Shown: positions 3,557-22,569 of the stretch, piece after piece
Layout of the letters: each line of letters starts with the position of its first letter
Position numbering within the stretch: the stretch's first letter is position 1
DNA from: a virus
DNA: 24,554 bases
IMG/VR virus record: IMGVR_UViG_3300012936_000159
Location: 1-24,554 of that record
Direction: 5' to 3' (one strand)
Program-made: the position numbers and the translations under genes
Notes under the pieces: model-generated
The model's database searches: none
What the model saw: the letters and a program-made list of their open reading frames with translations, nothing else
Told to the model about the DNA's origin: nothing

Positions 3557-3568
3557 TAGCACATAATT
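3552..3568 (+). repeat. 17-bp intergenic motif TATAGTAGCAYATAATT, copy 1
   Basis: The bases TATAGTAGCACATAATT overlap the stop of the lysozyme-like gene and precede the late promoter. A second copy with one difference (T for C) lies at 22192-22208 in the only other sizeable promoter-bearing gap. The function is unknown; it may be a transcription or RNA-processing signal. Confidence 0.5.
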
Positions 3569-3572
3569 CTGC

Positions 3573-3580
3573 TATAAATA
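3573..3580 (+). promoter_or_regulatory. T4-type late promoter (TATAAATA) for the baseplate wedge operon
   Basis: TATAAATA, followed by CTA, is an exact match to the T4 late -10 element recognised by the gp55/gp33/gp45-modified host RNA polymerase. It lies in the short gap after the lysozyme-like gene, just before gene 25. In T4 the octamer spans about -13 to -6, which places +1 at about 3586, the A of the gene 25 ATG. The element is seen directly; its use is inferred from the T4 system. Confidence 0.75.
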
Positions 3581-3585
3581 CTAGT

Positions 3586-3951
3586 ATGGCGACTTATATC
3601 GGATATAGCACAATTGGAAAGATTTCAGGAAGCAGACGTCTAACTGACGTTGATCTTGCTAAACGTGATCTTTTGAATCATTTTTACACTCGCAAAGGCG
3701 AACGTGTACAAAATCCAAACTTTGGTAGCATACTACATGACTTGGTATTTGATCCACTAGATACTGCTACAGAAGAAATTGCATTAGATGATGTAAACAA
3801 AATTATAAACAGTGATCCTCGATGGACACCCTTAGAAACTGTTCTCAGCAAGCCAGACGAACATTCACTTGATATTAGAGTGCGTCTAACATACAACGAC
3901 ACAGGCACTGCTGAAGAACTATACCTAACATATGTAGGCGAGATAGAATAA
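3586..3951 (+). CDS. 25: Baseplate wedge protein gp25
   Basis: The 121-residue product is a typical gp25/gpW-family wedge protein, close to the 132 residues of T4 gp25. The family core is clear: LAKRDLLNHFYTRKGER, then the hallmark N-x-x-x-G-S-x-L-x-D-L-x-F-x-P segment (NPNFGSILHDLVFDP) at about residues 43-57. An amphipathic helix and a final beta strand (LDIRVRLTYND) follow. Gp25 sits at the inner end of each wedge, contacts gp6 and gp53, and is related to the sheath-nucleating LysM/gpW proteins of other contractile machines. The ATG is preceded immediately by the late promoter octamer and has no recognisable Shine-Dalgarno, so its own transcript may be leaderless. The stop overlaps the start of gene 6 in TAATG. 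Confidence 0.95.
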   Translation: MATYIGYSTIGKISGSRRLTDVDLAKRDLLNHFYTRKGERVQNPNFGSILHDLVFDPLDTATEEIALDDVNKIINSDPRWTPLETVLSKPDEHSLDIRVRLTYNDTGTAEELYLTYVGEIE

Positions 3952-6900
3952 TGGCACAGGGCGCAAGACAGAGTAGTTTGTTTGCCGCAGAAGACTTTAG
4001 CGTAATCTATGAAAGTTTCAGTGAAGCAAACTTTCAAGCGTATGACTTTGAAACAATACGTAACGCTATGGTTGAATACATAAACACCAACTACCCAGAA
4101 AACTTTAATGATTGGATTACCAGTAGTGAATTTGTAAGTTTGATTGAACTTATGGCTTTCTTAGGACACAACCTAGCATTTAGGGCAGACCTAGCAAGCA
4201 GAGAAAACTATTTGAGTACAGCTGAACGCAGAGAAAGCGCCTTGCGTATTGCTGAATTCCTAAACTATCATCCCACAAGAAATGTCGTTGCAAGTGGATT
4301 ACTAAAAGTTGATAGTGTAAAGACCAACGAAACTGTTTATGATGTTGATGGAAACAATCTTGCAAACGTAAACTTGCAATTTGAAGATAGCACAGATCCA
4401 GACACTTACCAAAACTTTCTAACTATTATGAACGCTATTTTTCAAAACAGTAGTAAGTTTGGAACACCTTATGCAAGAACAACCATTGACGGAGTTAGCC
4501 ACGAGATTTATAGAACAAACAGTGTGAACACAGACAGCACCAACACATTTGCAAACCTTGTAAATGGCAAAAATGCTACATTCAACATGCACAGTTTGTA
4601 TTACAACGCAGAGAAAAATGCAATCGAAGAAAAATCACCTAACCCATATGGTGTAGTAGACTTGCTTTATAAAAATGACAACAGCGGATTCAGCAGTCCT
4701 AATACAGGATTCTTTGTTGGCTTCAAACAAGGTGCGTTGGTATTCCAAGATTTTAGAATTGAAAATGGCTTGCCAAACATGGTACTGGACATTGATGCAA
4801 ACAATGTTGCCAATGGCAATGTATATGTACAAACAATTGACGAAACTGCTAGAATACAAAAAACATGGACACAAGTGGACAAACTGTATGGACGTAACAG
4901 TATCTTCAACGCACTCAACAACAACACCAGAGACATCTACAGTGTTGCCAGCAGAGAAAATGATCAAATTAGTATTGTGTTCAGTGATGGCAACTTTGGT
5001 AATATTCCAAGAGGTGTTATTCGTGTTTGGTATCGCACAGGTCTAAATGACACATACACATTGGAGCCTGGACAGTTCAATAAAACAACTTTCAGTTTTG
5101 ATTATGTAGGTATTGATGGCAATGTCTACACTGCAACACTAAATCTAAGTTTGAAAAGCACAGTAAGCAATGCCAGTGCTAGAGAAAGTATTGCAAGCAT
5201 CAAAGCAAATGCTCCAAGATTCTTTGCTACACAGGACAGAATGGTTACAGCAGATGACTACAGCTTGTTCCCATTGACTGTGAGCGAAAACATTCGTAAG
5301 ATCAAAAGCATCAACAGAGTACACAGTGGACACAGTAGATTCAGAGACATATATGATCCAACAGCAACCTACAGTGATGCTATTCAATATATGAATGACG
5401 GATATCTATACAAAGAAGATACAGTAACAAGAAGTTTGCTAAACTTGCCAACCAGTTTGAGCAGTGAAAGTATTTTCAATAGAAACGTTATACCTCTATT
5501 GGACAACAGTGAACTCAAAAACTTCTACTACAACAATCATACATATGAAGGCACACACAGTAGCAACACAAGTTTTGCTGACACACAAGTTGGTATCACT
5601 TACTTCAATGCAGATGGCAGTGACACAAATGTTTTTCGTTGGAACCAAGTGAGCAAGGGCAATAAAACTTGTAGTGGATATATAACATTCAACACAATTG
5701 TACAGCGTTTAGGCACAGTTGCAACCAGCAGTTTGAAAAAACTAGAACCAAACGGACTAGTAGAATTTATTACTGCACCTTACAAAATGGGTTATGTAAA
5801 AACAATCAAAGTTGTAAATGGTGGTAGTGGTTATACAAGTGCGCCAACAGTTACAATTGGTGGCACAGGTACAGGTGCTACAGGCACTGCAAACATCAGT
5901 GCAGGCAGTGTTGTAAGTGTTACAATTACTGACAGTGGTAGTGGCTACAATGACGCAACAAGTATTGTGTTCAGTGGCGGCGGAGGCAGTGGTGCAGTAG
6001 CAAGTATTACAGTAGCCAACAGCGACACAACATGGGCAAGAGTTGTAAGTCTATACAAAGATGGACTTGGACAAGATGATGCAACAGGCACACCCAATGG
6101 TATAAACATCACAGGCAAAGGTGCAGTTGTACTCAGTCAAGTGATTCCAAGTGGTGCTAGAATCAAAAGACTTGTTTCAAGTTGGGCAACAAGTACTACT
6201 GCTACAACAAAGTCAAACATCAAAGCAAAGATTTCAGGCAACTTGAGTTTTGGTTTGAGATATGATGCTGGCAGTCAGTCATGGAAAATTATCGATAGTG
6301 CTAACTTACCAGCCAACAGCGTAACCAATAACAGCATAGCACAGTGGAGCAGAGTGTACGAAGGCGACAACAGCAACACAGGCAGAGACAACAGCTGGTT
6401 GATTAGATTCAATTACACCAGTGACTATTGGGAAATACTAGTTAGAAAGAATACTATTATATTTGGTAGTGATCAACAAGTTAGATTCAACAATCTAAAC
6501 TTCAAAGAAACTTTCAGCAGTGAAACACTCAAGCCGTTGGACGACAGTTTGACAGTATTGAAAATCAATGGACAAACAAATGACACCAGTGTTCCTTTGC
6601 TCAAGAACTATCAGTTCAATGCATACGGATACTATATCTACAGCGACGGATACACAGATCCACACAAGATTAGAGTTACATTGGATGATCCAGACAATGA
6701 CGGATTCCCAAATGATCCTGAAGCATTTGTAAAACTATTGGGCACAGACACAATCAAACTAGGCACAGTTATTGAAAATGATTATACATTTACAATACAT
6801 GACACAAACGGAAGCACCAGTGTAGGTGGTAGAAATAACTTGCACACTGAGTATAGAAGAATTGCAGACATCAATCAAGTTATTGATCCTGCAACAACAA

Positions 6901-7478
6901 ATGTTATTGACACTTATGTACTACTCAGCAACTATGATGCAGATTACAGAGCATGGGCACAGTATGATGGTAGATCCAGCACTAGACCTAACCCACCAAC
7001 TATTAGTGAACTAAACAATATCTTTGACAGTTTGAACAGCAAGAAGAGCATCAGTGACCAAGTAATTTACAGACCAGTAAAATACAAAGTACTGTTTGGC
7101 GATTTGGCTAGCAGTGAATTACAAGCACGTTTCCTTGTTACTAAAACTGCAAACAGTAGTATGAGTGATACAGAAATCAAACAAAATGTTATTAGACTAA
7201 TAGAAACATATTTTAGTGTTGACAACTGGGACTTTGGAGAAGAGTTTTACTTTACAGAAATGGCGGCGTACATTCACAACAACATGATTGGACAGATCAG
7301 TAGTATTACAATTCAGCCAGTTGCTAATGATATGAACACAACAGAACTATTTGAAATAAGCAGTGACAGCGATGAACTGTTTTTACCAATTCTCACAACC
7401 AGCAATATTGATATTGTAAATACTGCAATTAGTAACCCAACAACAATTGCATCAAACACTGGAGTTAGCATTCAATGA
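3951..7478 (+). CDS. 6: Baseplate wedge protein gp6 (enlarged)
   Basis: The N-terminus carries the conserved gp6 (phage J-like) core: YINTNYPENFNDWITSSEF, LIELMAFLGHNLAFRADL and RRESALRIAEFLNYHPTRN at residues ~44-110, which also marks marine T4-like gp6. Gp6 forms the inner iris of the baseplate and clamps gp7 and gp25. At 1175 residues it is much longer than T4 gp6 (660). Part of the excess is an insert at residues ~614-692 containing two GSGY units (VVNGGSGYTSAPTVTI and ITDSGSGYNDATSIVF) separated by Gly/Thr-rich loops, with a similar module in the next protein. The C-terminal part (KYKVLFGDLASSELQARF, FTEMAAYIHNNMIGQISSI) returns to gp6-like sequence. The start is coupled to gene 25 (TAATG), with AGG about 12 bases upstream. 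The end overlaps the next gene as ATGA. Confidence 0.92.
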   Translation: MAQGARQSSLFAAEDFSVIYESFSEANFQAYDFETIRNAMVEYINTNYPENFNDWITSSEFVSLIELMAFLGHNLAFRADLASRENYLSTAERRESALRIAEFLNYHPTRNVVASGLLKVDSVKTNETVYDVDGNNLANVNLQFEDSTDPDTYQNFLTIMNAIFQNSSKFGTPYARTTIDGVSHEIYRTNSVNTDSTNTFANLVNGKNATFNMHSLYYNAEKNAIEEKSPNPYGVVDLLYKNDNSGFSSPNTGFFVGFKQGALVFQDFRIENGLPNMVLDIDANNVANGNVYVQTIDETARIQKTWTQVDKLYGRNSIFNALNNNTRDIYSVASRENDQISIVFSDGNFGNIPRGVIRVWYRTGLNDTYTLEPGQFNKTTFSFDYVGIDGNVYTATLNLSLKSTVSNASARESIASIKANAPRFFATQDRMVTADDYSLFPLTVSENIRKIKSINRVHSGHSRFRDIYDPTATYSDAIQYMNDGYLYKEDTVTRSLLNLPTSLSSESIFNRNVIPLLDNSELKNFYYNNHTYEGTHSSNTSFADTQVGITYFNADGSDTNVFRWNQVSKGNKTCSGYITFNTIVQRLGTVATSSLKKLEPNGLVEFITAPYKMGYVKTIKVVNGGSGYTSAPTVTIGGTGTGATGTANISAGSVVSVTITDSGSGYNDATSIVFSGGGGSGAVASITVANSDTTWARVVSLYKDGLGQDDATGTPNGINITGKGAVVLSQVIPSGARIKRLVSSWATSTTATTKSNIKAKISGNLSFGLRYDAGSQSWKIIDSANLPANSVTNNSIAQWSRVYEGDNSNTGRDNSWLIRFNYTSDYWEILVRKNTIIFGSDQQVRFNNLNFKETFSSETLKPLDDSLTVLKINGQTNDTSVPLLKNYQFNAYGYYIYSDGYTDPHKIRVTLDDPDNDGFPNDPEAFVKLLGTDTIKLGTVIENDYTFTIHDTNGSTSVGGRNNLHTEYRRIADINQVIDPATTNVIDTYVLLSNYDADYRAWAQYDGRSSTRPNPPTISELNNIFDSLNSKKSISDQVIYRPVKYKVLFGDLASSELQARFLVTKTANSSMSDTEIKQNVIRLIETYFSVDNWDFGEEFYFTEMAAYIHNNMIGQISSITIQPVANDMNTTELFEISSDSDELFLPILTTSNIDIVNTAISNPTTIASNTGVSIQ
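5788..6027 (+). other. GSGY module inserted in gp6
   Basis: This covers residues ~613-692 of gp6. Two half-units each read V-x-x-G-S-G-Y-x-x-A-x-x-V/I, separated by glycine-rich sequence (GGTGTGATG and SGGGGSGAV). Such Gly/Thr-rich beta modules recur in marine phage structural proteins. A related pair occurs in the giant protein at 11847-12095, which suggests module exchange within the wedge operon. Confidence 0.65.
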
Positions 7479-10400
7479 GTGAACGTCAAGTAAAAGCAAC
7501 TAATGCTCCGTTGATTACCAGACCAGGTGAAAGCAAAGAATTTTTAGGTACAAGAAATGTTGTGGACTTTCTTCCACAGATTTTTCAAACCACAGTAAAC
7601 AAATCATTCTTAGACACTACACTTGAACAGTTGATGAGTTCAGGTAGTTTGCTTGCAGTCAGTAACTATGTTGGTAGTACACAATCACGTTCTGCTACAG
7701 AAGATTATCATCTAACAAATAGAAGTTATACTGATGCTGTACAGTTTGTTACAGGTGCAGTAAACAAAGACGCTGATCAAAATATTACACAAGCACTCAG
7801 CTATGATGATCTTGTAAATCAGATTACAGTACTTGAAGATGATGCTAAACAACACAACAACTCACTCAACGAGCAAGGCTATACGCTGAACTTGCCAATC
7901 AACTACGACATGTTTATAAACTATCACAAGTATTTTTGGCTTGTTGATACAATGCAACCTTGTGACCTAGTTTACAATTTTGCAAACCCGCTTACAAACA
8001 TCGACGATATAATTGGACTAACTTATTACACCACACCAACACTAGACAATGGTAAAACATTGGAACTGCAAAACGGCATGAGAATTCGTTTCAAGCCAAT
8101 ACGACAAGATGTATTTCATCAATCAGTGGTGGGCAACACAACATTTACATTGACCATAAACGGTGCAACATATAGAAAAGTTTATGTAGATAATATTATA
8201 CAAACAGAAGGTGTAGACTACACAATTGTAGGAACAACACTAACACTTACTTCAGCACCAGCACTAACAACAGAAGTACAAGTTGATCATTATTGGGCCA
8301 ACGGTACAAACTATCATGTGGGAGACATTTACATTGTCGACGGCATTGGCACTGAGAAAGGTCTGTGTCTTACTAGACAGTTTGAAAGTTCTCGCAGAGC
8401 TGACAGTTATGAAGTAAGAGAATTTTTGAGTCACACAGTTTATACCAGTCAAGAGCCAAGTACATTTGATGGAGACAATCAAAACTTTGACTTTGATCCA
8501 TATGACATCAGAGAATTTAGAAATGTAGACAGAGATTATGTTTGTGAACAGCGTTTTGCAACAGATAGCAGTGCATGGGCTAGAACAAACAATTGGATAC
8601 ATGAAACTGCCGCACAAGCCGCACTGGACTTTCAAGGCGAAGCGTACAGTGATTGGCTTGCAGAACCTTACAGAGCTGTTAGACCTATTATTGAATTTCG
8701 TGCTAACATTGAAAAATACAATTTTGGTACAAGACACATTCATAATGTTACACATCTACACGAAAGCACAGCAGACCCTGCTACAACTATTGTTGGACAA
8801 ACTGCCTGGACACACATGGGCAACATTACAAACAACTGGACAATAGGACAGGGATATGTGATTGGAGAAAAAGTAAAATTTACACTTGGCGGTGAAACCA
8901 GTTACTATGAGTGTGCTGAAACACACGGAGAAAGTTACAATCCAACTTACTTTGAAAACAGACGCTGGTGGAGACAAATAAATCCATTGGAAGTACAGAC
9001 AGGCGATACTATTTTGTTCTTGGGTACAACAAACACAACGTATGCAAACAAGATTTTTAGAGTAGGAGGTGTTAGCACTAGCATTACACTTACAGAAGTT
9101 TACGGTCCTAGCAGTACTGCATTGGTGAGTGGTGACAAGATTTTAGTTGTACATGGATACAACGACGAGCAGTTCAACAACAGTGAATCAACAAAGCCTT
9201 ATGAAGGCAGTGAGTGGCATTGGGATGGCACTGCATGGAACTATAGCAGTCAGAAGATGCACAAAAGCGCAGGACTTCCTATTCAACTTTATGATATCGA
9301 TGGTGTCAAACTTGATGACACTACAACATATCCTGAAAGTACATTTACAGGTGACGGTGTTTTTGATTATGGAAAAAGTTCTACAAGTCCAGTTGACCAC
9401 GCACTAGGTTTTAGTCCAAGTTACGTAGACTACGGTAACACACCAGGATTAGATTTTGCATTTGGTGCAGGAGCTATACGCTATAACTATGTAATATTTG
9501 ACCAAGACAATGATGTAAAAGTTACAAAAGAAATTCCAGGATATTATTTTTACAAAAACTTAGATACTAATAGATATGAAAATACTTGGAGTTTGATTAG
9601 AAACGCACAGCCAGTAAAAAGACACGCACAAAAAATTGTAGATGCAGATAAAAGTACAGTACAGTTTGATCTAGGAACAACTGATGTAGCAATTGGTAGA
9701 ACTATTAGATTTACAAAACGTTTGGGACAACTGGTAGCACACTATGAAAGTCCAGCTAGAATGGACGAAATAAACGGTCAATATCCTACACTGTACATGA
9801 GTAGAAATAAAAACTACGATATCAAAACACAATTTTTCCAAAGTGAGATTGAGTTTGTAAATTTTGATGGCACAGCATTGGGTGCTGGCATTACAAGAAC
9901 AGCAGGCACAGGTGACGATTTTCAATTGCAAATTGTTGCTCCAACTTACGATGCATTCAAGTATAGACTAACAGCATCACCAAACACATACGGTATGATT
10001 TATTTGGATGATAATACTGCTGATTATAATTTTGTTGTTACAAAAAACAGCGTTGTCAACACAACAGATTGGACCTACAGCAACGGAGTTGTTACTGTAA
10101 ACACCAATGCGCTTGCAACAGATGATGTTTGGGAAGTCACATGGCACAGTGATTCAACACTTAGCGATACAGCAGACGGCGAATTTATGCCAGCTGACAC
10201 ACACATTTACAATCCTCAAAACAAAAAACTAAGCACAGCTAGTTTTGGTGATATGATTGAACACATGAGAGATCAAATGGAAAGCATGCCAGGCTTTACA
10301 GGCGATTACTTTGGTGACAACAACTACAACAAACGTGCAAGAGTACATGAATATGGCGGTACTATTAGACAACAACCATTTAGTACAGAACTTATTGGTC

Positions 10401-13400
10401 AAATGAACATGGATACTGATACACACGCTATCAGTAGTTTGAAGTATGCCAGCAACAGTTACAGAAGATTCAAAAATCAATTCACACAAAAAATGCAACA
10501 ACTGCACAACACAGTGGACATCACAACACCAGTATACGAATTGGTGGACCGTGCTCTTGAAGAAATTACTATAGGTAAAGATGCTAACAGTCCATTTGCT
10601 AACAGCAACATGGCTATGTTCAAAGAATATGAAAGTGTTCTCAACACATACCATCCAGGTCCTGGACAAACATGGGATCTACCACATGCAGTTAGTACAT
10701 ATGACGATGCAAAAAATCACGTACAAGTATTTGTCAGTGACAATGGTGTTTGGAGACAATTAGAAAAAAGTGAATATACACTGACTGCGTATAATGTTAC
10801 AATTACTACAACATTTCCAAATAGTAGTCCTTTTGAAATTCGCTGGTATCCTCAAAATGCTGTGAGCTATATTCCTAGCAGTGCAGTAAAACTAGGATTG
10901 ATAAAACCATATCAGCCTAGCTCAAACCTGTCATATGGTGTAGACAGTGCAATACTAGGACATGACGGAAGCATTCATATCAAAACAGGCAGTGAACTTT
11001 ATGATAGAACCAGCAGTAGTTTTGATATTGTTAGTGCGGCACTTTGGGATTTAGAACTTAGAATTTGGAACAATCTACAAGATGATTTCAGCAACATCAT
11101 TGAGTACGAGCATATTATGCCAAATGCTAACATTGGTACTCCTCACAGTTGGACAGACTTGAACAATGCACTTGAAAACGATTGGGTAAAGTTCAAAGCA
11201 CGTAATAGTATTACTACACTTACACCAGCTGGATATTTTACATCAGATGAATTTACATGGAACTATAGCAGTGTAGGTCCTGGCATTGCTGGATACAAAG
11301 GCTTGTACAACTATTATTTCAATACAGATAGACCACACATCACTCCTTGGGAAATGTTTGGATATCACATAAAGCCAGCTTGGTGGGATACTCACTACAG
11401 TTGGAGTGCAGGTCCAAAGCGTACAGCTCTTATATCTGCACTAAAATTTGGACTATACAATGATCCTTCACAGCCAGCTAAACAAGATCCACGTTGGAGT
11501 TATAGATGGTTTGACTGGAGCGCAAATGACCTAGTTACTACAGCTGGTGTACTAAATGGTCCAGTAACCAGTGGATTGGTTTCTGCACCCACTGCAATAA
11601 ACAGAGCCAAAGACTTTGTGTTTGGTGATTGGGGTCCTGTAGAAGATCAATGGAGACGTAGCAGTGAAGGTAAAATTGCACTGTTTACTGCACTTATGAA
11701 AATTAGACCACTGTGGATTACAAACACATTCTTCAGCAGTAACAAACGCAAAATAAAACAAGACGGAAACTGGAATACACCTATTATCTACAACAGCGAT
11801 TTCAATCAGTTGATAGATCACACCAAGCCTTTGCTAAGTTCTACTACTTACGAAGGTGGCATAATTGAAAGTGTTAGAATTGCAGATGCTGGCAGTGGAT
11901 ACATAAACCCTCCAGTGCTAAAAGTTTATGATAACTTTGGAAGCGGTGCTACTCTACGTGCATATGTTACAAGTGCTGGAACAATAAGAGCAGTAGAAGT
12001 TACAAATCCAGGCAGTAATTATTTTAGCAAGCCTGTGATTCTTCAAGACCCTGCGGGCAACGGATCACTAGAAGCAGTTATAAAACAAAACGCTAAACGT
12101 TACTTTATTGGACTTAGCAACGCAATGGTAGAATACGCAAAGTTCAACAACACAAGCGTAACTCAACTAACAGAAAGATTCAGCAGACTAGACTTCAGTC
12201 CTATACTAAAAACTGGAGGCTTTATCAACGCAGGTGGCAATCAGTTTATACTAGAAAGCAGTCAAGACAAAGGCAGTGTTGTAATACCAGAAGAAAATGC
12301 AAAGATTGTACTCTACAACAGCAAGCCAGTTGACGAACTGTTTATTGGTGGTATAACAGTTACAAAAACCAGCACAGGATATAAGATCAACGGATTTGAC
12401 AACGAAACATATCAATTTGTATACTATAATCCAAACACAGGAAGCATGAGAACCACAGTAACACAAGATAGTGTCAGTGTTATTCGTTATGCTGTATATG
12501 ATACAATTGAACAAACATTGGATTACAATGATGAGTTTTATAATGTTCAAGAAGTGTACAACTTTATATTAGGCTACGGCGAATATCTAAAATCAAAAGG
12601 TTATGATGCCAACTGGAGATCACAAGGCGTAAACTTTGTAGCATGGGCGGCTGGTGATATGTCAACACCAATTACATTGATGCCAAATTCAGAATCAATT
12701 GTAGTACCAGAGCCTAGCAGAGGTTACTATGACAATATTGAAAACAAGTATGATGCAGTGTACAACCTAGTTGACATCAACGGCAAACAAATCAGCAGTG
12801 ACAGCGTTGTATTTTTACGCAACACTGCAAACAAAGATCAAACAACAAGCATTATTGTAAAAGACAGCACCAAAACAGCAATTTATGGTATTAGACTTTA
12901 CATAGTTGAAACAGAACACACAGTTGTATTTGACAACAACACAGATTTTGATGACACAGTTTATGATAGTGCATTGGGTCAAAGACACACAAGGATTATT
13001 TGGAAAGGTAGTAAAACTAAAAACTGGAATGGTAAACTACATGCACCAGGTTATATTATTACCAGCGATGATGTTATTGAAAACTTTGATACAGTAGCAA
13101 GAGAACTGGATCAATACTACGGAAAGACAAATACAATCAGCAACAAACAAATTGCTGATGTTGCAAAGTTCAACAGCGGATACAACAAAGCTGATTGGGC
13201 TACGCAACTGAAGCTGGACGACGACACAGCATTTGATCTCTACAAAGGCGGACTAAAGTATCAAGGTACACGCTACAGTTTAGATGCGTTTATGAAAAAC
13301 AAAGCCTTGTTTGGAGCAGATGCTACAGCAAATCTATTTGAAGAATGGGCTGTACGCACAGCAGACTATGGTGATGTACGTAGCAGAGATACTATAGAGT

Positions 13401-16400
13401 TTGAACTGAACACAACAACACACGTTACCAGTCCACAGCCAATTAGATTCAACGCTGATACCACAGTAGTTGATGCACTAACTGACCTTACAATTGACAT
13501 TAGTAATAGCAGTGACTTGTTGGTAACAGGAGATGTAAACAATGTGTTTACAACCAGACCTGCAAGAACTTACACCAAGTCAACTATTAGCGATGAAGCA
13601 CAATACGCTGGAGATTTTATTACAGCAGGTCTACCGCTGACAAATGAAACAGATTATCGTGTGCTAACCAAAGACCACTTTACACAGTTTCCAACTCCAG
13701 CAAATGATGCTTATATTTTTGATGGTGAATGGCAGGACATTGACCAATGGGATAACAAGACCAGTTACAAGTTCAATGACAAAGTAATTTACGTGGGTAG
13801 AGTTTGGGAAATGGTTGACCCAGATGGAGCAAGTGGACTGAACAGACCAAATGATCCTATCTCAGTAACAGGCACAATTACACTACCAACAATTAGTAGC
13901 AGTGGTGGTACATTGATCATTGACGGAACAAGTGTACAGCTAACTAAATCTGTACAGAGTACAACAAACAATGTAATAAACGTTATTGGTACTAATAATA
14001 TTGGCGGCAGTAGTTTAGTAACAAACGGTAGCACAGTAATATTTGGCGAAAGCAGTGGTGTTGCTAGAACAGTTACATTTTCAAACAGCGTTACCACAAC
14101 AACATTCAATAACATTGTAAAAAATGGTACAGTAACAAATCCAGTAATTCAAGGTAGTGCAACCAAAACACTTATTATTGATGGCACTACAGTAAACTTC
14201 AATGATGTAGTAAACACTACTTCAAATATTACTGCACAAGTTGCATGGGAAAATGCGTTCAATACTAGCTGGACAATAAACACAGGTCAAATTTCAGCAG
14301 AAGCGTCAAACAGAATCAATGACTTGCAAGCACTCAAAGTTCAGTACATAAGTGCAACTAATCCTTCAGGAAGCGATTGGATTGCCTTTATGACCAGTTA
14401 TTACAGTCAGAGTGATGCAGGACTAAATCTTAGTTTCTTACTCAGTGAGCATGCAACTGCTTCTGTAACTTATATTACACAACTTGAAAGTTTTATAGCC
14501 AGAGACGTAACAGTTATCAACAATGTGTTGAATAGAACATATGTCGCGGCAGACGTAATCAGCGGTGTTACAGTTATTCCAGCACAAGATATTACTGACA
14601 CACAAAATGCAGTGGACAATGGCGCATATATGACAGGATTCAAAAATTATATGCTGGACATTTCCAATGCTGGATCGCTACTACAAACTTTCACAGTAGT
14701 TACAACAGAAAATACCACTGGATTCAAAGTTTATCAGTTGAATGATATTGTACAAGAGATTACCAGTGCAGGTGTTCCTAACGTAACAGCAAGTGCAGTA
14801 GGCTCTATATTGCGCTTGACAAAAACTACAACTACACCTACTAACGCATTTAGTTTGACAGTCAGTGTTGGTACTGCTAACACAGATGTTGGATTTAGCG
14901 GTGTTACAGAAACAATCAATGCAACCAGCACTAGTACAATAACCAATCCTAACCTCACACTATCACAGGTTGTAAATCAAATCAACACTGCAAGTATTAC
15001 AGGTGTTACTGCACAAGTAGCCAGCAATGGCACAAGTTTGCAAATCAACTGTAACCTAGCAACACTGTTTATTGGTAGTGGTACTGCTAATGGTGTAATA
15101 GGACTCACAGCAGGTGTTATTCCAGCAAGCACTACAACTACAACAACTGCGGTAAGTTTGAATCTAACAGATATTATTGGCGCAATCAACAATGCAAGTA
15201 TTAGTGGTGTAACAGCAAGCAACAACAACAATAGATTGGGCATTACCAGTAACAATGCAACACTTGTAATTGGAGCAGGAACCAGTAACAATGATGTTGG
15301 ACTTACTGCACAAACATACAGTGCAGTACAAGGCACAGTGAGCAACGTTTTCAATGCAGTTGTAAACGGAACACAAGTGTTCAAAGAGATGCCAAACGAT
15401 CCAAACATATTCAGCATTTGGGTTGCAGACAACAGTGACCAAGGCAACTTCAACAAGGGCTATGCAGTTTATCAGACCATGGATTTTGGAATGTATGCAA
15501 GTCGTGCATGTGCTGGTATTACAGCAGATGATGATGCACAAATTACAGTTACAAGATATCCTAACACTGTTACCCAAGCACACAATTTACAAGCAGGCGA
15601 CTACGTGTTTATTACTGGTAGTACCACTGTTCCTAATATTGATGGTATACACAAAGTTACAGGCGCTGATCCTAACAATGCTAACAAATTTTTCATTGAT
15701 GAATTTATTGAACAAGAAGGCGGAACAGGTAATATCTATCCTTTGAGAAACTTGAGATTCAGTGACTTTGCAAGTTTACAACAAGCCGCCACTGCACAAG
15801 TCAATGGAGTTTATACTCATAACTTTGCAGGCATAAGACAAAACAATACCAACACACCAATTTATGCTTATGTTGATAGAATTAGTACCAGCGATGATAG
15901 ACCAGCAGTTTATCGTTGGACAGGAACATTCAATGACAGCGTAGGTCACATCAATGGACAGTGGCTTCAAGTTAGAATTGGAGATGTGCAAGCAAGAAAT
16001 GATCTTGTTGAGAATGTAAAAATTTATGATGCAATTACTGAAACAACAATTGCACAACTAGAAACATATGATCCAGCAAAAGGAATTTTGTTTGGATTTA
16101 TTCAAGAAGAGATTGATTATATCTTTACAGCAGATGTTGCAGGATACAATTACAATACTATTGATGGAAGTATTCCTAATACACAAGCATGGGGATCAGC
16201 ACAAGTTGGCAAACGTTGGTGGAATCTAAACACAGCAATTTATTTGGACTACGAACAAGGTAGTACTGATTATAGACAAAACAATTGGGGCAAACTATTT
16301 GACGGTGCAAGCATTGACGTTTACGAATGGACTCGCAGTACAGTTCTTCCAGAACAGTGGAGTGAAAATGTACAAAGAGGACTAGTGGTTGATGGTAGAG

Positions 16401-19400
16401 TTGCAAGTGGTGAAGCCTACAACAATGTAATCAACGGTGAAGAACTTTACAACTGGGTTGAAGAAAGTTATTACAATCCAAAAACACGTAGAACAGAAAC
16501 TTACTTTTACTTCTGGGTCAAAAATAAAATCAATCACTACGGAAACAGAGATTACAACACATATCAATTGAGCGTACTGCTATCAAATCCAAACAGTTTT
16601 GATATTGCATGGTGTGCTGGTAGTGGAAGCAATGTATTGTTTGTAAGCAATGCACAGCGTTTCTTGACCAAGAACAGCGTAGCACAGTTGAATCTATCAT
16701 ACGAAAGCAATGCAATGCCATTGCAAGAATGGACATTGATCAGTGAAGATGATCCAGACCAGCGCATACCAGAATATCTACACATAAAAATACGTGACAG
16801 TTTAGCTGGGTTCAACAATTACAAAGAAAGATTCGACTATACAACTTGGAGCAACACAACCATTTACACAGCAGATGTAGTAGTACAAGAAGGCACTAAT
16901 TTTTATCTAAGTGTGCAAGGATCCAATCAAAACAATCAACCAAGTTTGGATACTGCACAGAGTTATTGGAGTAGAATTTATGACTTCGATACTGTAGAAA
17001 GTACACAAGGTGATGACATTGATGTGTGGAGAGGTCAAATGCTACCTGACTTGAATCTGCACAAGCACAATCGTTATGGACATTTGATTCGTCCAAGACA
17101 AAGTTTGTACAGAGATTTAGTTGAAGCTAGACAAAACTTTGTTTACAAACTAAACGAACTACTAGGAGAAATTTTGCTAGTAGATGAAATGCAAGATTGG
17201 GAGCAAGTATTCTACAAAGAATATGTAAAAGGTATAGTAACATACAAAACATCCAAGTATTGGAACTTTGCGGATTGGCGTCTAGTAGAAAGAGATCACA
17301 ATGATGTTATAACATTTGAATTTGACACTAACATTGTTGCTGATGTAGCATACAATGACTATCCAAAAATGATAGCAGACACAAGTCAATCTGAGAACAC
17401 ATACGCTCTAGTAAAAGTAGTGCCACACAGCGATGGCATCAACAGACCTGAGACTTATCGTTATGATGGCACACAGTGGAAACTAGTACACAAACAAAAA
17501 GCAACAATTGCGTTCAGTGAAGAAGTTTGGAATCAAAGCAAGTTTGGACATGGATATGATGCACAAGGTTTTGACATTACACCATTTGATAGTGGTAGCA
17601 GTGACATACTAAGTACACTGTTTGATGACTTGCGCAACAAAGTGTTTATCAATACACACAGACTCAAGTACAACAAACTATGGTTCAGTTGTTTGTTGCA
17701 GGCAGTACTGCAAAACACAACCAGCGACTTTGCATTCAAAACAACTTATGTAAAACTAAAAGTACAACACCCAGTATTGACAAACAGAACACATTACGAA
17801 AGATATCACATCAGTATTGTTGAAGATTATCTACAGCAAATCAAACCATTCCACACAAAAGTACACAGTGTAATGGACAGCAATACACTGGGCGAAGGCA
17901 TCAGCGTTGAAATTGATGACAAGAACCATTCAAAAATGCTTGTTGAAATGCGTAGACTGGATCACAGCTTGAGAAGTTGGCAGTGTGATATTATATTGAA
18001 CGGAGGTGACTTTGGTTATACTCCTGGCAATGAAGATGTTAGTTTGTTCACAACGGTTGACGCAGACTACGATATCATATATAATGGCAACAAGTTTGAC
18101 CAACCTGCTTGTGAGTGGGAGGGCGATGAACTTTATCCTGTAGACTATACTGAAAACATTAGTATTGCTGTACAAACAAATGCACAAGGCATGGTTATAG
18201 CAGGTCCAACTCATAGTGTTGCGGCACAAGAAAATAATCCTAGAGGAATAACATTCAACAACGATGGAACAAAAATGTTTGTTATTGGCGCGGCAGGTGA
18301 TGATGTGAATGAATATACACTTTCAACAGGATTTGATTTATCATCTACAGTTACTTTTATAGACAGTTTTGCAGTTACACAATGTCCAAATCCAACCGCA
18401 GTAAAATTTAACACAGATGGTACAAAGATGTTTGTAACTGGTACGGGCAATAATAATGTTCACGAGTATGCACTGTCAACAGGCTTTGATGTGTCAACTG
18501 CAAGCTTCACACAAACACTGGTCACCACTGTAGACAATGATCATTTTGGACTAGACTTTAAAGATGATGGTACTAAAATGTATATCACAGGAAATCAAAA
18601 TGACAAGATATATGAATTTGATTTATCATCTGCGTTTGACATTTCAACAGCAACATTCAATCAAGATTTATACTTAGGTGCAACAGACTTTGAACCATTT
18701 GGTATAGAATTCAACCCTACTGGAACAAAAATGTTTATAGTTGGCACACTTGGTAATGGCGTAGATTTATTTAGACTGACAAATCCTTGGGATATTTCAA
18801 CAGCAACACATGCAGAATTTTACCTATTAGGAGCTAATCCTTCAGGTATACATTTCAATCCTACTGGTACAAAAATGTTCATTGTAGGAAATCTTGGAGA
18901 TAGAGTTGAAGAATTTGGTCTTACAGTACCGTATGAATTTACAACCAGTAGCATTGCTACAGCAGATACTAGATCATTTAGAATAAACTACTATGAGCCA
19001 ATGGGTATTGAAGTTAGTAACGTGATTGTTGACAATAAGAAAACTGTTCTAGCAAGTGATATAACAGCTACAGCAACTGATATTCCAGTTACCAATGCTA
19101 GCGTACTTGACCAACCAACAATTACAACAGGTCATGGAGCACCTAATAGGAATGGTGTTGTATGGATTGGAACAGAAAGAATTGAATACGGTGCAATTGA
19201 CGATAACTCAGATACGCTGAAGTTCTGTGTTAGAGGTACACTAGGTACAGGTCAAAAAGCACACACAAGTGGAGACACAGTTATCAACAGTGGCAACACT
19301 ACAAAGATTCCAGCACTAGAGAAATTCTCACATTATGGAGATAATTTGCGCATGGCATACAATGACAGCGGAATTACACTAGCTGACCCAGGAATTACAC

Positions 19401-19444
19401 CAGAACATGCTTTCATTAGAAATGCAGGGCAAGGATCGATATAA
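7475..19444 (+). CDS. Giant modular baseplate/tail structural protein (gp7-position)
   Basis: One unbroken frame of 3989 codons follows gene 6 with an ATGA overlap; GGAG lies 10 bases before the ATG. T4 has gene 7 (1032 residues, wedge initiator) at this place, so the N-terminal part may be its counterpart, but I see no decisive gp7 motif. Residues ~1-170 (NVVDFLPQIFQTTVNKSFLD, NLPINYDMFINYHKYFWLVD) look like a globular attachment region. Then come many modules: fibre-type beta domains at ~218-275, 829-894 and 1076-1126; W-rich CBM5/12-like modules at ~452-503, 2083-2118 and 3119-3171; a GSGY module at ~1459-1539; Thr/Asn-rich IIDGT and hook-IN-like repeats at ~2135-2620; a propeller-like array at ~3588-3829; and a C-terminal IGTERIEY module. 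No signal peptide, membrane segment or protease motif is apparent. It probably forms the outer wedge and a host-facing appendage. The virion role is well supported by context; the gp7 identity is only inferred. Confidence 0.82.
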   Translation: MSERQVKATNAPLITRPGESKEFLGTRNVVDFLPQIFQTTVNKSFLDTTLEQLMSSGSLLAVSNYVGSTQSRSATEDYHLTNRSYTDAVQFVTGAVNKDADQNITQALSYDDLVNQITVLEDDAKQHNNSLNEQGYTLNLPINYDMFINYHKYFWLVDTMQPCDLVYNFANPLTNIDDIIGLTYYTTPTLDNGKTLELQNGMRIRFKPIRQDVFHQSVVGNTTFTLTINGATYRKVYVDNIIQTEGVDYTIVGTTLTLTSAPALTTEVQVDHYWANGTNYHVGDIYIVDGIGTEKGLCLTRQFESSRRADSYEVREFLSHTVYTSQEPSTFDGDNQNFDFDPYDIREFRNVDRDYVCEQRFATDSSAWARTNNWIHETAAQAALDFQGEAYSDWLAEPYRAVRPIIEFRANIEKYNFGTRHIHNVTHLHESTADPATTIVGQTAWTHMGNITNNWTIGQGYVIGEKVKFTLGGETSYYECAETHGESYNPTYFENRRWWRQINPLEVQTGDTILFLGTTNTTYANKIFRVGGVSTSITLTEVYGPSSTALVSGDKILVVHGYNDEQFNNSESTKPYEGSEWHWDGTAWNYSSQKMHKSAGLPIQLYDIDGVKLDDTTTYPESTFTGDGVFDYGKSSTSPVDHALGFSPSYVDYGNTPGLDFAFGAGAIRYNYVIFDQDNDVKVTKEIPGYYFYKNLDTNRYENTWSLIRNAQPVKRHAQKIVDADKSTVQFDLGTTDVAIGRTIRFTKRLGQLVAHYESPARMDEINGQYPTLYMSRNKNYDIKTQFFQSEIEFVNFDGTALGAGITRTAGTGDDFQLQIVAPTYDAFKYRLTASPNTYGMIYLDDNTADYNFVVTKNSVVNTTDWTYSNGVVTVNTNALATDDVWEVTWHSDSTLSDTADGEFMPADTHIYNPQNKKLSTASFGDMIEHMRDQMESMPGFTGDYFGDNNYNKRARVHEYGGTIRQQPFSTELIGQMNMDTDTHAISSLKYASNSYRRFKNQFTQKMQQLHNTVDITTPVYELVDRALEEITIGKDANSPFANSNMAMFKEYESVLNTYHPGPGQTWDLPHAVSTYDDAKNHVQVFVSDNGVWRQLEKSEYTLTAYNVTITTTFPNSSPFEIRWYPQNAVSYIPSSAVKLGLIKPYQPSSNLSYGVDSAILGHDGSIHIKTGSELYDRTSSSFDIVSAALWDLELRIWNNLQDDFSNIIEYEHIMPNANIGTPHSWTDLNNALENDWVKFKARNSITTLTPAGYFTSDEFTWNYSSVGPGIAGYKGLYNYYFNTDRPHITPWEMFGYHIKPAWWDTHYSWSAGPKRTALISALKFGLYNDPSQPAKQDPRWSYRWFDWSANDLVTTAGVLNGPVTSGLVSAPTAINRAKDFVFGDWGPVEDQWRRSSEGKIALFTALMKIRPLWITNTFFSSNKRKIKQDGNWNTPIIYNSDFNQLIDHTKPLLSSTTYEGGIIESVRIADAGSGYINPPVLKVYDNFGSGATLRAYVTSAGTIRAVEVTNPGSNYFSKPVILQDPAGNGSLEAVIKQNAKRYFIGLSNAMVEYAKFNNTSVTQLTERFSRLDFSPILKTGGFINAGGNQFILESSQDKGSVVIPEENAKIVLYNSKPVDELFIGGITVTKTSTGYKINGFDNETYQFVYYNPNTGSMRTTVTQDSVSVIRYAVYDTIEQTLDYNDEFYNVQEVYNFILGYGEYLKSKGYDANWRSQGVNFVAWAAGDMSTPITLMPNSESIVVPEPSRGYYDNIENKYDAVYNLVDINGKQISSDSVVFLRNTANKDQTTSIIVKDSTKTAIYGIRLYIVETEHTVVFDNNTDFDDTVYDSALGQRHTRIIWKGSKTKNWNGKLHAPGYIITSDDVIENFDTVARELDQYYGKTNTISNKQIADVAKFNSGYNKADWATQLKLDDDTAFDLYKGGLKYQGTRYSLDAFMKNKALFGADATANLFEEWAVRTADYGDVRSRDTIEFELNTTTHVTSPQPIRFNADTTVVDALTDLTIDISNSSDLLVTGDVNNVFTTRPARTYTKSTISDEAQYAGDFITAGLPLTNETDYRVLTKDHFTQFPTPANDAYIFDGEWQDIDQWDNKTSYKFNDKVIYVGRVWEMVDPDGASGLNRPNDPISVTGTITLPTISSSGGTLIIDGTSVQLTKSVQSTTNNVINVIGTNNIGGSSLVTNGSTVIFGESSGVARTVTFSNSVTTTTFNNIVKNGTVTNPVIQGSATKTLIIDGTTVNFNDVVNTTSNITAQVAWENAFNTSWTINTGQISAEASNRINDLQALKVQYISATNPSGSDWIAFMTSYYSQSDAGLNLSFLLSEHATASVTYITQLESFIARDVTVINNVLNRTYVAADVISGVTVIPAQDITDTQNAVDNGAYMTGFKNYMLDISNAGSLLQTFTVVTTENTTGFKVYQLNDIVQEITSAGVPNVTASAVGSILRLTKTTTTPTNAFSLTVSVGTANTDVGFSGVTETINATSTSTITNPNLTLSQVVNQINTASITGVTAQVASNGTSLQINCNLATLFIGSGTANGVIGLTAGVIPASTTTTTTAVSLNLTDIIGAINNASISGVTASNNNNRLGITSNNATLVIGAGTSNNDVGLTAQTYSAVQGTVSNVFNAVVNGTQVFKEMPNDPNIFSIWVADNSDQGNFNKGYAVYQTMDFGMYASRACAGITADDDAQITVTRYPNTVTQAHNLQAGDYVFITGSTTVPNIDGIHKVTGADPNNANKFFIDEFIEQEGGTGNIYPLRNLRFSDFASLQQAATAQVNGVYTHNFAGIRQNNTNTPIYAYVDRISTSDDRPAVYRWTGTFNDSVGHINGQWLQVRIGDVQARNDLVENVKIYDAITETTIAQLETYDPAKGILFGFIQEEIDYIFTADVAGYNYNTIDGSIPNTQAWGSAQVGKRWWNLNTAIYLDYEQGSTDYRQNNWGKLFDGASIDVYEWTRSTVLPEQWSENVQRGLVVDGRVASGEAYNNVINGEELYNWVEESYYNPKTRRTETYFYFWVKNKINHYGNRDYNTYQLSVLLSNPNSFDIAWCAGSGSNVLFVSNAQRFLTKNSVAQLNLSYESNAMPLQEWTLISEDDPDQRIPEYLHIKIRDSLAGFNNYKERFDYTTWSNTTIYTADVVVQEGTNFYLSVQGSNQNNQPSLDTAQSYWSRIYDFDTVESTQGDDIDVWRGQMLPDLNLHKHNRYGHLIRPRQSLYRDLVEARQNFVYKLNELLGEILLVDEMQDWEQVFYKEYVKGIVTYKTSKYWNFADWRLVERDHNDVITFEFDTNIVADVAYNDYPKMIADTSQSENTYALVKVVPHSDGINRPETYRYDGTQWKLVHKQKATIAFSEEVWNQSKFGHGYDAQGFDITPFDSGSSDILSTLFDDLRNKVFINTHRLKYNKLWFSCLLQAVLQNTTSDFAFKTTYVKLKVQHPVLTNRTHYERYHISIVEDYLQQIKPFHTKVHSVMDSNTLGEGISVEIDDKNHSKMLVEMRRLDHSLRSWQCDIILNGGDFGYTPGNEDVSLFTTVDADYDIIYNGNKFDQPACEWEGDELYPVDYTENISIAVQTNAQGMVIAGPTHSVAAQENNPRGITFNNDGTKMFVIGAAGDDVNEYTLSTGFDLSSTVTFIDSFAVTQCPNPTAVKFNTDGTKMFVTGTGNNNVHEYALSTGFDVSTASFTQTLVTTVDNDHFGLDFKDDGTKMYITGNQNDKIYEFDLSSAFDISTATFNQDLYLGATDFEPFGIEFNPTGTKMFIVGTLGNGVDLFRLTNPWDISTATHAEFYLLGANPSGIHFNPTGTKMFIVGNLGDRVEEFGLTVPYEFTTSSIATADTRSFRINYYEPMGIEVSNVIVDNKKTVLASDITATATDIPVTNASVLDQPTITTGHGAPNRNGVVWIGTERIEYGAIDDNSDTLKFCVRGTLGTGQKAHTSGDTVINSGNTTKIPALEKFSHYGDNLRMAYNDSGITLADPGITPEHAFIRNAGQGSI
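8122..8295 (+). other. Fibre-type beta domain, copy 1 in giant protein
   Basis: This covers residues ~217-274 of the giant protein: TTFTLTINGATYRKVYVDNI followed by GVDYTIVGTTLTLTSAPA. The pattern 'F.I...y..v.VdgvlQ...DYtv.GttLTl...p..' matches the C-terminal domain of the lysozyme-like protein (3346-3553). Weaker relatives lie at 9960-10158 and 10700-10852. Confidence 0.6.
8827..8985 (+). other. W-rich CBM5/12-like module 1 in giant protein
   Basis: The stretch TNNWTIGQGYVIGEKVKF, then YYECAETHGE and RRWWRQI, follows the pattern W-x(4)-Y-x-x-G-(D/E)-x-V-x(n)-Y-x-C/S...WW-x-x-I found in small chitin/carbohydrate-binding and phage fibre modules of the CBM5/12 type. Binding to a sugar is not shown. 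Confidence 0.45.
11847..12095 (+). other. GSGY module in giant protein (related to gp6 insert)
   Basis: This covers residues ~1458-1540: ESVRIADAGSGYINPPVLKV, then GSGATLRAYV, then VEVTNPGSNYFSKPVILQD. The two half-units (GSGY and GSNY) are spaced as in the insert of gp6 at 5788-6027. Confidence 0.6.
13738..13833 (+). other. W-rich CBM5/12-like module 2 in giant protein
   Basis: DIDQWDNKTSYKFNDKVIYV followed by GRVWEMVDPDG has the W-x(4)-Y-x-x-x-D-x-V-x-Y pattern of module 1, ending at the edge of the Thr-rich repeat region. Confidence 0.45.
13870..14240 (+). repeat. IIDGT beta repeats in giant protein
   Basis: Residues ~2132-2255 contain two copies of TLIIDGT(S/T)V about 260 bases apart (near 13911 and 14169), with a looser strand (LVTNGSTVIFG) between them. 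The Thr/Ser/Asn-rich composition and short strands suggest a repetitive fibrous or decorating segment, possibly the leading strand of hook-IN-type modules. Confidence 0.5.
14721..15328 (+). repeat. Three tandem hook-IN-like repeats in giant protein
   Basis: Three units of roughly 200 bases (about 66 residues) lie at ~14721-14931, 14932-15128 and 15129-15328. Shared anchors are a helix with I-x-x-I/V...I-N-x-A (NDIVQEITSA, SQVVNQINTA, TDIIGAINNA), then (P/T/S)(N/G)VTA, then a strand, then GTANTDVGF, GTANGVIGL and GTSNNDVGL. This is the pattern of the flagellin hook IN motif (INxA...GVTA...GT..N.LGL). Homology is by eye. Confidence 0.6.
16836..16986 (+). other. W-rich CBM5/12-like module 3 in giant protein
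   Basis: YTTWSNTTIYTADVVVQEG, then NFYLSVQGSNQNNQPS and YWSRI, is the clearest of the three modules: W-x(4)-Y-x-x-x-D-V-V, a Y-x-S turn, an Asn/Gln loop and a closing W-x-x-I. Confidence 0.5.
18233..18960 (+). repeat. Five-unit beta-propeller-like repeat array in giant protein
   Basis: Five units of 48-51 residues each carry F(N/K)xxGTKM(F/Y)(V/I)xG, then (V/I)xE(Y/F)xL, then FD(L/V/I)ST. The GTKM glycine codons start at 18266, 18419, 18569, 18722 and 18866, a spacing of 153, 150, 153 and 144 bases. This is the pattern of propeller blades of the lactonase/'GTKMYV' type seen in surface and phage structural proteins. Five clear blades are visible; a sixth, divergent one may exist at either end. 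Confidence 0.75.
19035..19305 (+). other. C-terminal IGTERIEY module of giant protein
   Basis: TVLASDITATATDIPVTNAS, then VVWIGTERIEYGAI, then VRGTLGT...AHTSGDTV follows a pattern repeatedly seen at the ends of phage structural proteins: A.a.i.atdttIpVts...G.v.IG.E.I.Y......l..v.RG..GT.a..H..G..V. It is probably a small beta domain for attachment or capping. Confidence 0.55.
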
Positions 19445-19466: not shown

Positions 19467-20054
19467 ATGGAATTAAAAATTGAAAAGCCTCTAGTTGGCA
19501 TTGAAGGACATATAAAGATTTGGGATCCTGAGTCAGGCGAAGTATTTGTTCGCAGACGTAACGCTGTGAACTTTGAAAACATGAGCGTGGCTATTGCAAA
19601 TCTGCTAGCCAACGAAACAGGATCATCCAGCACATATGAAATTGCCACTATGAGATTTGGAAATGGTGGCACTAGTATTGATGGCTTGGGTAACGTAACT
19701 TACAAAGCTACTAATACCAGCACAGCTAGTGGCATACTATATAACCAAACATTTTCCCAAACTGTTGACGATGCGACAGCAGATAACAGTGTTGAAGTAA
19801 CACATACTAGTCCAAACACTTTCTCAGACGTTGTTACGACTTGTACATTAGATTATGCAATACCAGTGGGACAAGATACACTAGACACAAGTACTGATAT
19901 GAACGGTACATATGTGTTTGACGAATTAGGATTATACACAGGCAACGGCGATCTGTTGACACATGTAATTTTTCATCCAGTACAAAAGAGTGCTAATAGA
20001 AAAATACAAGTGGTGTATACACTACGAATTAGAACAAGTTTTGCAGACTTATAA
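19467..20054 (+). CDS. Putative baseplate/tail appendage protein, unknown
   Basis: I do not recognise this 195-residue protein with confidence. The N-terminus (KPLVGIEGHIKIWDPESGEV) and the following strands look beta-rich. A helix (NFENMSVAIANLLANE) is followed by an 'M-R-F-G-N-G-G' turn near residue 67. The C-terminal half holds NGTYVFDELGLYTGNGDLLT and a closing strand QVVYTLRIRT. The 'F-x-E-(I/L)-G-L-(Y/F)' turn with a preceding 'GnGg' loop is reminiscent of N-terminal domains of phage tail-collar/tail-fibre proteins (DUF3751 type), which would fit a fibre-attachment role. It is the first gene after a late promoter that overlaps the giant gene's stop, so late virion expression is likely. 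T4 gp8 lies at a comparable place but is longer, and I see no decisive similarity. Confidence 0.6.
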   Translation: MELKIEKPLVGIEGHIKIWDPESGEVFVRRRNAVNFENMSVAIANLLANETGSSSTYEIATMRFGNGGTSIDGLGNVTYKATNTSTASGILYNQTFSQTVDDATADNSVEVTHTSPNTFSDVVTTCTLDYAIPVGQDTLDTSTDMNGTYVFDELGLYTGNGDLLTHVIFHPVQKSANRKIQVVYTLRIRTSFADL

Positions 20055-20069
20055 TTAGAGAGAATAACG

Positions 20070-20981
20070 ATGCCATATACAATAAATTATAGTACAGGTT
20101 CAAAGACTCCTATAGTTGTAAACGATGGTACAGTTGATACAACCACCAGTATTAGTTTGATTGGTAAAAACTATACAAGGTTTGGTGAGATACTGAACGA
20201 AAACTTTTTACACCTATTAGAAAACTTTGCAAGCGGTACTGCACCAACAAACCCATCTGAAGGACAGCTTTGGTACGATACAGCAAACAGCAAACTAATG
20301 CTATACGACGGACAGTGGTTTAGTATTGGAGCGCCAGCAAGTAATACACGGATCGAATACCGTAATAGACAAGACACGCTGGGCATATATCACAATACAA
20401 TAGAAACAATTGTAGACAGCAACATTGTAAGCATTATTACAGATGACACTACAGCATGGACACCTCATGCAACAGAATATTTAGAAGATGGCGTAACAGC
20501 TCTAAGCACACAGTTCAATGTTATTCAAGCAGGCATCACAATGAATAGCACAACAGACTATAAGTTTAGAGGTATCGCAACAAGTGCAGAATATGCTGAC
20601 CTTGCAGAGCGTTATGAAGCCGATGCAGAATATGAAGCAGGTACAGTAGTTAGACTAGGTGGAACACACGAAATCACTCAAACACTACAACAAATGGATA
20701 CTGATGTATTTGGAATTATCAGTACTGCACCAGGATTTGAAATGAATGCAGGTGCTGGTTCAGATGCTACACATCCTTTTGTAGCACTAGCAGGGCGGGT
20801 GCCTTGCAAAGTCGTTGGCAAAGTAGCCAAAGGACAGAGACTGGTTTCGAGTAACACCCCAGGTCACGCAATGGCAATATCAACACCAAGTAGCGAATGC
20901 TACGCAGTTATTGGTAGAGCACTAGAATCTAAGGACACAGAAGAAACCGGAACAATTGAAGTAGTAGTGGGAGCAAAATAA
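20070..20981 (+). CDS. Tail-fibre-like protein with candidate C-terminal autoproteolytic (Peptidase_G2-like) domain
   Basis: The 303-residue protein starts after a GAGAG Shine-Dalgarno. Residues ~32-87 hold a module common in marine phage fibre proteins: GKNYTRFGEILNENFLHLLE, then GTAPTNPSEGQLWYDTANSK and a W at the end of a Y-D-G-x-W turn. The middle is beta-rich. Residues ~171-303 resemble intramolecular-chaperone domains of the Peptidase_G2 type: AEYADLAERYEADAEYEAGT, VVRLGG, FGIISTAPGFEMN, VALAGRVPCKVVG, KGQRLVSS, AVIGRAL and a final GTIEVVV. In known fibres such domains help trimer assembly and are cut off. Whether this one cleaves cannot be decided; Ser172 near the domain start is a possible site only by analogy. 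The next ATG is one base after the stop. The family call is by pattern. Confidence 0.65.
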   Translation: MPYTINYSTGSKTPIVVNDGTVDTTTSISLIGKNYTRFGEILNENFLHLLENFASGTAPTNPSEGQLWYDTANSKLMLYDGQWFSIGAPASNTRIEYRNRQDTLGIYHNTIETIVDSNIVSIITDDTTAWTPHATEYLEDGVTALSTQFNVIQAGITMNSTTDYKFRGIATSAEYADLAERYEADAEYEAGTVVRLGGTHEITQTLQQMDTDVFGIISTAPGFEMNAGAGSDATHPFVALAGRVPCKVVGKVAKGQRLVSSNTPGHAMAISTPSSECYAVIGRALESKDTEETGTIEVVVGAK

Positions 20982-22221: not shown

Positions 22222-22569
22222 ATGGACGAGAGACTCGAAAAAGCTCTGGAATTTGCAAACTATCGTATTACTCTGAGTAATCAGAAGAGAAACGTTAGGA
22301 CACGTATGCAAGTCCTCCAGACCGTTCATCACAACAATGGCACATTTATTGCAGATGCCGAGACTATTGGCTTTGTAGCCGCATTGCTGAACTTTGGCAA
22401 AACTTCAGCAATTTTGATTGATACCAAAGATAATCCAATTGAAATTGATAACTTGGAAGCATTTAGAGATATATTGTTTGAAGCATATGCAGAAGCTAGC
22501 TTTGAATACAAAACACAGATGGAAAAAATCCAACGTGCAAGAAATATCAAAAAACTTATGGATTGGTAA
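22222..22569 (+). CDS. Small conserved-looking phage protein, unknown function
   Basis: This protein has 115 residues, and its start is fixed by AGGAG. Residues 1-35 are charged and helical (LEKALEFANYRITLSNQKRN). A central strand-helix section contains DAETIGFVAALLNFGKTSAI and then LIDTKDNPIEIDNLEAFRDI. The C-terminus is a long basic/acidic helix ending KIQRARNIKKLMDW. The 'FANY(R)xTLxNQK...TSAxLIDTxxNPxEI' arrangement is one I associate with small proteins encoded beside the tail genes of marine T4-like phages, but no biochemical role is known to me. No signal peptide, membrane segment or metal motif is seen. It is the first gene after a sigma70-like promoter, and its stop directly abuts the ATG of the first glycosyltransferase-like gene, so the two are co-transcribed. 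Confidence 0.75.
   Translation: MDERLEKALEFANYRITLSNQKRNVRTRMQVLQTVHHNNGTFIADAETIGFVAALLNFGKTSAILIDTKDNPIEIDNLEAFRDILFEAYAEASFEYKTQMEKIQRARNIKKLMDW

Follow-up and report, generated by a model that had tools for sequence, protein, structure and literature searches.

A giant structural protein encoded beside the gp6-like gene of a marine phage and its putatively mobile beta-propeller cassette

The window analyzed here, 24,554 nucleotides in length, is an entire 24.5-kb IMG/VR record (IMGVR_UViG_3300012936_000159), and the annotated genes and domains described below lie on its plus strand. Profile searches identified a baseplate hub or gp5-like protein (1296..2660; PHROG 13211), a gp25-like baseplate wedge protein (3586..3951; PHROG 43 and Pfam GPW_gp25) and a gp6-like baseplate wedge protein of 1,175 aa (3951..7478; PHROG 10646, E 9e-265). 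The latter is larger than T4 gp6, and its additional stretches match PHROG 460 and PHROG 1922. Its stop codon and the ATG of the next gene overlap as ATGA. This next gene (7475..19444) encodes the protein that we refer to as the giant, a structural protein of the PHROG 10938 family: it has an ATG start, 3,989 codons plus a stop and zero internal stops, exactly the single frame claimed by an earlier sequence-only reading, which had also been correct in putting the product at roughly four times the length of T4 gp7 (1,032 aa). The giant is followed by a companion gene of 195 aa (19467..20054; PHROG 11259) and, as the next gene in the cluster, by a gene for a fibre-like protein (20070..20981; PHROG profile search). 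Five ORFs of the window (2660-3556, 20983-22158, 22222-22569, 22570-23478 and 23475-24329) gave no PHROG match at E 0.001.

The giant matches PHROG 10938 ("virion structural protein", profile length 3,324) with an E-value of 1.1e-240; the best stretch covers residues 1533-3247 (12071..17215), and its core is conserved with named jumbo phages. A tblastn search with the giant returned 60 named jumbo-phage records at ~24-27% identity, and in IMG/VR relatives were found at 74 loci, with 29 distinct full-length proteins of 3.4-4.0 kaa. Single-gene homologues are present in RaK2 (3,326 aa), XbC2 (3,339 aa), CBB (3,340 aa) and Vibrio 2.275 (3,771 aa), and longer ones in SCTP-2 (3,807 aa), PA5oct (3,857 aa), Atu_ph07 (4,449 aa) and Phosso (4,555 aa). 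The core is nearly constant in length and conserved across distant phages. The gp25-gp6-giant order was found in PA5oct, CBB, Atu_ph07, RaK2, XbC2 and Phosso, whereas in SCTP-2 the gp6 homologue and the giant are not adjacent. At the structural level, a BFVD search revealed an N-terminal fold common to the window giant and an Atu_ph07 structural protein (E 9e-41), and the AF2 model of residues 1-1100 matched predicted phage protein structures, those of Atu_ph07 among them, along its length (E 1e-30 to 1e-48). Judging from these comparisons, the giant is evidently a divergent member of PHROG 10938 and not a one-off fusion. Since single-gene homologues occur in named phages and 29 relatives are full-length, the giant frame is normal for its lineage and no accident of assembly.

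Homologues have also been detected in virions. Mass spectrometry of CBB virions identified CBB_236 by 21 peptides at 7.7% coverage (PMC5259590), and that of phAPEC6 virions identified gp245 (381.9 kDa, 17 peptides), which adjoins the wedge protein gp244 (PMC7247149) and which we take as a homologue by size and place, not by sequence; for PA5oct gp355, presence in the virion by mass spectrometry is stated in the record note. These detections and the gp25-gp6-giant order support the structural protein that had been claimed for the gene 7 position, and its assignment as a baseplate protein at this position is well supported. RaK2 ORF070, CBB_236, phAPEC6 gp245, PA5oct gp355 and the Atu_ph07 protein resemble the window giant in family, length class, place after gp25-gp6 and N-terminal fold. 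The named PHROG 10938 giants differ from it in sequence (~24-31% identical) and in that only the window giant carries the propeller cassette described below. Giants at the gp7 position are thus already known: RaK2/PA5oct/Atu-like jumbo phages have them as a rule, and they are also found among cyanomyoviruses. The description of the giant as a mosaic holds insofar as fibre- and adhesin-type modules are present, but the architecture is not new.

The modules were delimited by homologue comparison, by fold comparison of AF2 models and, in one case, by eye. The model of residues 1-1100 has a mean pLDDT of 69.5 and is fair over 140-900; that of residues 1091-2130 has a mean pLDDT of 58.5 and is too uncertain for a fold verdict. 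An N-terminal block (residues 22-155, 7538..7939) is conserved in all jumbo homologues, and its fold is not confidently predicted. Residues 207-275 (8093..8299) probably form a docking domain like that of T4 gp10 and the XD domain of TSP4: they match 7rej_A, the docking/XD domain of CBA120 TSP4 (VIA Z 9.6, rmsd 1.7, 66 residues, 23% identity), as well as tail adaptor domains of several phages in the fold comparison of the AF2 model. This domain is missing in some relatives and corresponds to a gap in the PA5oct and CBB alignments. Further along the chain are a W-rich, CBM5/12-like module resembling a chitin-binding CBM (residues 452-504, 8828..8986; Z 6.7 over 47 residues to 4nz1_A), a cupredoxin-like beta-sandwich, which is a common arrangement (residues 740-849, 9692..10021; fold comparison of the AF2 model), and a GSGY-type beta module that is also found in cyanophage giants (residues 1465-1538, 11867..12088), with a weak match to a T4 gp18 sheath domain. 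Residues 2091-2113 are likewise W-rich and CBM5/12-like but fall below the Pfam cut-off, and a Pfam scan of the giant up to E 10 yielded only sub-threshold CBM matches. The C-terminal part contains a DFAFKTTY...IKPFHTK block found in all the jumbo homologues compared (residues 3335-3480, 17477..17914), the propeller and, by homologue comparison, a terminal IGTERIEY...RGTLGT domain (residues 3850-3989, 19022..19441; IGTERIEY at ~3898-3905). PDB profile searches with alignments A1 and A2 gave no match. Among the modules that the sequence-only reading had listed, the propeller-like array, a fibre-type beta domain (207-275) and IGTERIEY were recovered; the W-rich modules are weak, GSGY occurs as one exact copy (1473) and one near copy (1511), and the two hook-IN-like repeats (residues 2499-2610, 14969..15304; starts at 2499 and 2567) were seen by eye and have no Pfam match.

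An important question is whether the giant is itself a gp7. It shares with T4 gp7 the gene position and the overlap with gp6, and differs from this much shorter protein in that no significant sequence or fold match links the two. A blastp comparison of the giant with T4 gp7 found no match, and none of 16 giant-family slices compared with the T4 gp7 family by hhalign scored above the reversed controls. The fold lists for residues 1-1100 contain no gp7 (residues 1-130 are not confidently modelled); T4 gp7 is absent from every fold list of both AF2 models, which by itself excludes nothing. The suggestion that the first ~900 residues represent gp7 was therefore not borne out, and the sole gp7-like signal is a borderline, non-significant profile alignment in the middle of the protein, a gp7 or tail-protein-I-like motif (FDLYKGGLKYQGTRYSLDAFMKN; residues 1900-1961, 13172..13357). 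When slice 1850-2010 is aligned to P-TIM68-type giants, it is in register with their gp7 KGT motif (hhalign probability 11.7%, E 0.0025), whereas against a combined gp7 profile, for which 96 sliding windows were compared and 200 column shuffles made, the probability drops to 1.6% and 8 of the 200 shuffles score as well. As a positive control, two cyanophage giants that follow gp6, Syn19_088 (6,483 aa; L116:55-19506) and P-TIM68 gp086 (4,307 aa; L117:33-12956), match T4 gp7 by hhalign with E-values of 1.6e-9 and 2.1e-9; at the level of profiles, this shows the gp7 motif to be present in them, in agreement with the existing annotation of some records. Sullivan et al. (2010) put gp7 among the non-cyanophage core genes (PMC3037559). 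Both cyanophage proteins share with the window giant the gene position, the giant size and the GSGY-type and IGTERIEY-like modules; the difference is that their gp7 motif is significant and that of the window giant at best borderline.

Between the conserved block and the C-terminal domain lies a YVTN-type beta-propeller cassette of 256 residues (3567-3822, 18173..18940), recognized by its repeats, a PDB match and its distribution among relatives. It contains five GTKM repeats (at 3598, 3649, 3699, 3750 and 3798) with a period of ~50. In a single-sequence PDB query, it matched 1l0q, the YVTN beta-propeller of a Methanosarcina surface layer protein, with an E-value of 1.1e-10; the repeat sequence is alike over 219 residues (query residues 20-238), and the cassette differs from 1l0q in having five repeats and in being inserted in virion proteins. 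Only 4 of the 29 full-length relatives possess it. In nearly all the cassette-less relatives, the chain continues from VQTN straight into the next conserved strand, while two end before the site; as judged from these alignments, the cassette is a clean and precise insertion after VQTN. Between the window cassette and the cassettes of the other carriers, identity is 63-93%, whereas for the same pairs it is ~43-57% across most of the remaining gene and 64-65% in the conserved C-terminal part. Giants with cores as little as 24-27% identical carry cassettes that are 72-79% identical, and for the giants of records G010, G011 and G023 compared with the window, the values are 24-27% for cores and 75-77% for cassettes. 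The proportion of identical fourfold-degenerate sites is also higher in the cassette (0.57-0.71) than in the rest of the gene (0.43-0.50), with Fisher p-values of 0.0012, 0.0052 and 1e-6 in three of the four window pairs and 0.055 in the fourth (L006). Because the cassette is less diverged at these sites than the remainder of the gene, its similarity suggests horizontal transfer and not selection only; purifying selection alone was ruled out as the cause, with the L006 pair reaching only that last p-value.

The cassette is not confined to giants. Copies that are 61-75% identical were found in PHROG 13163-type baseplate fibre/wedge proteins, at several non-homologous places, and near the C-terminus of PHROG 227 gp15-type proteins. 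Roseobacter podoviruses contain divergent copies, and in the Lentibacter phage ICBM2 the genes with such propellers alternate with genes for tail assembly chaperones. Exactly one copy was found in 19 of the 24 records searched and none in the other five; a single copy holds in contigs of 125, 165 and 182 kb, although this one-copy rule is provisional since the records are incomplete genomes. In records G013, G017 and G021 (those of L129, L139 and L148), the cassette resides in a fibre gene, and the related giants of 5,190, 4,945 and 4,975 aa are without it. In the cassette tree, carrier labels are clustered, and neither the giants nor the fibres form one clade; the topology would still be compatible with a single origin of the cassette in giants. 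When the literature was searched for mobile virion beta-propellers, the unrelated tail-tube propeller of podoviruses was the only result. Taken on sequence grounds, the pattern points to movement of the cassette by recombination, both from one phage lineage to another and among different virion proteins. A more tentative extension, which we consider quite possible but do not favour, is that it is a one-copy-per-genome mobile cassette moved between lineages and non-homologous proteins (giant, baseplate fibre and gp15), such that the phage would need a propeller on its particle without its place being fixed.

Several individual records deserve mention. Gp15-type tail-sheath stabilisers with a near-C-terminal cassette occur in three contigs (L143:1805-3961, L144 and L145:2529-4658). 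At L142:4903-7011, a fibre-type N-terminus is followed by a propeller, a giant-type IGTERIEY-like end and then the contig end, so that this gene is either a recombinant or an assembly chimera. In LR756508.1 (H211), a 484-kb uncultured phage record, 13 places match the propeller cassette.

We propose, with a probability of about 0.65, that the giant serves a marine contractile-tail phage of the jumbo type as a wedge-associated baseplate or tail scaffold and bears an exchangeable surface-binding propeller; its wedge location and the adhesion are inferred. The conserved blocks (22-155, ~900-1420, 1540-2050 and 2830-3480) would anchor the giant in the baseplate beside gp6, which it presumably contacts, and the exposed beta modules, including the gp10/TSP4-like docking domain, may provide attachment points for fibres or glycans. 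The propeller, an autonomous domain inserted into a loop close to the C-terminus, would be displayed. It has apparently passed by recombination from phage to phage and from one virion protein to another, and it would most likely serve as a reusable module for adhesion to glycans of the host or the environment, possibly by binding a receptor.

Other readings of the giant have to be weighed against this proposal. It could be a true but very divergent gp7 in which, as in the cyanophage giants, a trifurcation core in the middle of the protein (~1850-2010) is flanked on either side by very large extensions. The gene position directly 3' of gp6, the profile matches of 4.3-6.5-kaa cyanophage proteins at the same position and the in-register KGT alignment make this a serious possibility, but the loss of signal against the combined profile, the lack of a fold match and an AF2 confidence below 50 over much of that region keep it short of an even chance. 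Improbable, in our judgment, is that the giant is a long fibre, whisker or sheath-decorating protein and merely the operon neighbour of gp6: beta modules do predominate in it, gp7 homology was found neither by hhalign nor by fold comparison, SCTP-2 breaks the gp6-giant order and CBB, a jumbo relative, bears whiskers that are unexplained (PMC5259590), yet the gp25-gp6 order is kept in nearly all the relatives examined, and a conserved core of near-constant length is unlike that of host-range fibres. That assembly joined the long frame from parts, or that its product is cleaved into separate virion proteins, appears highly improbable. The homologue coverage of only 7-8% in mass spectrometry leaves room for cleavage, but the frames are intact in named isolates and in 29 independent relatives of similar length, which come from other metagenomes and have one open frame each at the same place; these full-length relatives led us to reject an assembly artefact and make the join or frameshift contemplated by the sequence-only reading very unlikely.

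As for the propeller, a role in assembly, decoration or enzymatic activity instead of attachment is unlikely, though less so than the fibre or cleavage alternatives for the giant. Its occurrence on gp15-type as well as baseplate proteins, its optional presence in giants and its single copy per record would suit such a role, whereas the exchange pattern, the carriers among fibre genes and the tail assembly chaperone neighbours suit surface modules. The suggestion that the baseplate rim itself has become the receptor-binding apparatus is only partly supported. Adhesin-type modules are indeed present in the gp7-position protein, but the propeller is optional and missing in most relatives. T4 gp15 is located at the head-proximal end of the tail, and a cassette on gp15 is thus ill-suited to a receptor-contacting tip. 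Adsorption of RaK2 has been attributed to other proteins, gp531 and gp098 (PMC10253068); together with the gp15 carriers, this disfavours a simple receptor-binding tip.

The new element at this locus is the propeller cassette, the giant itself being of an already known type. Jumbo phages and cyanomyoviruses commonly encode giants at the gp7 position, and the papers that we found describe no role for them; the comparison presented here separates conserved blocks, probably the scaffold, from exchangeable ones and yields a defined domain of 256 residues. Phage Ig-like domains are promiscuous surface domains that recur on unrelated virion proteins and move horizontally. The cassette resembles them in these respects and differs in being a beta-propeller, an internal insertion and present in one copy per record. 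If the proposal is true, the spread of this domain between unrelated virion proteins across phage lineages would clearly exemplify how virions evolve through the transfer of domains.
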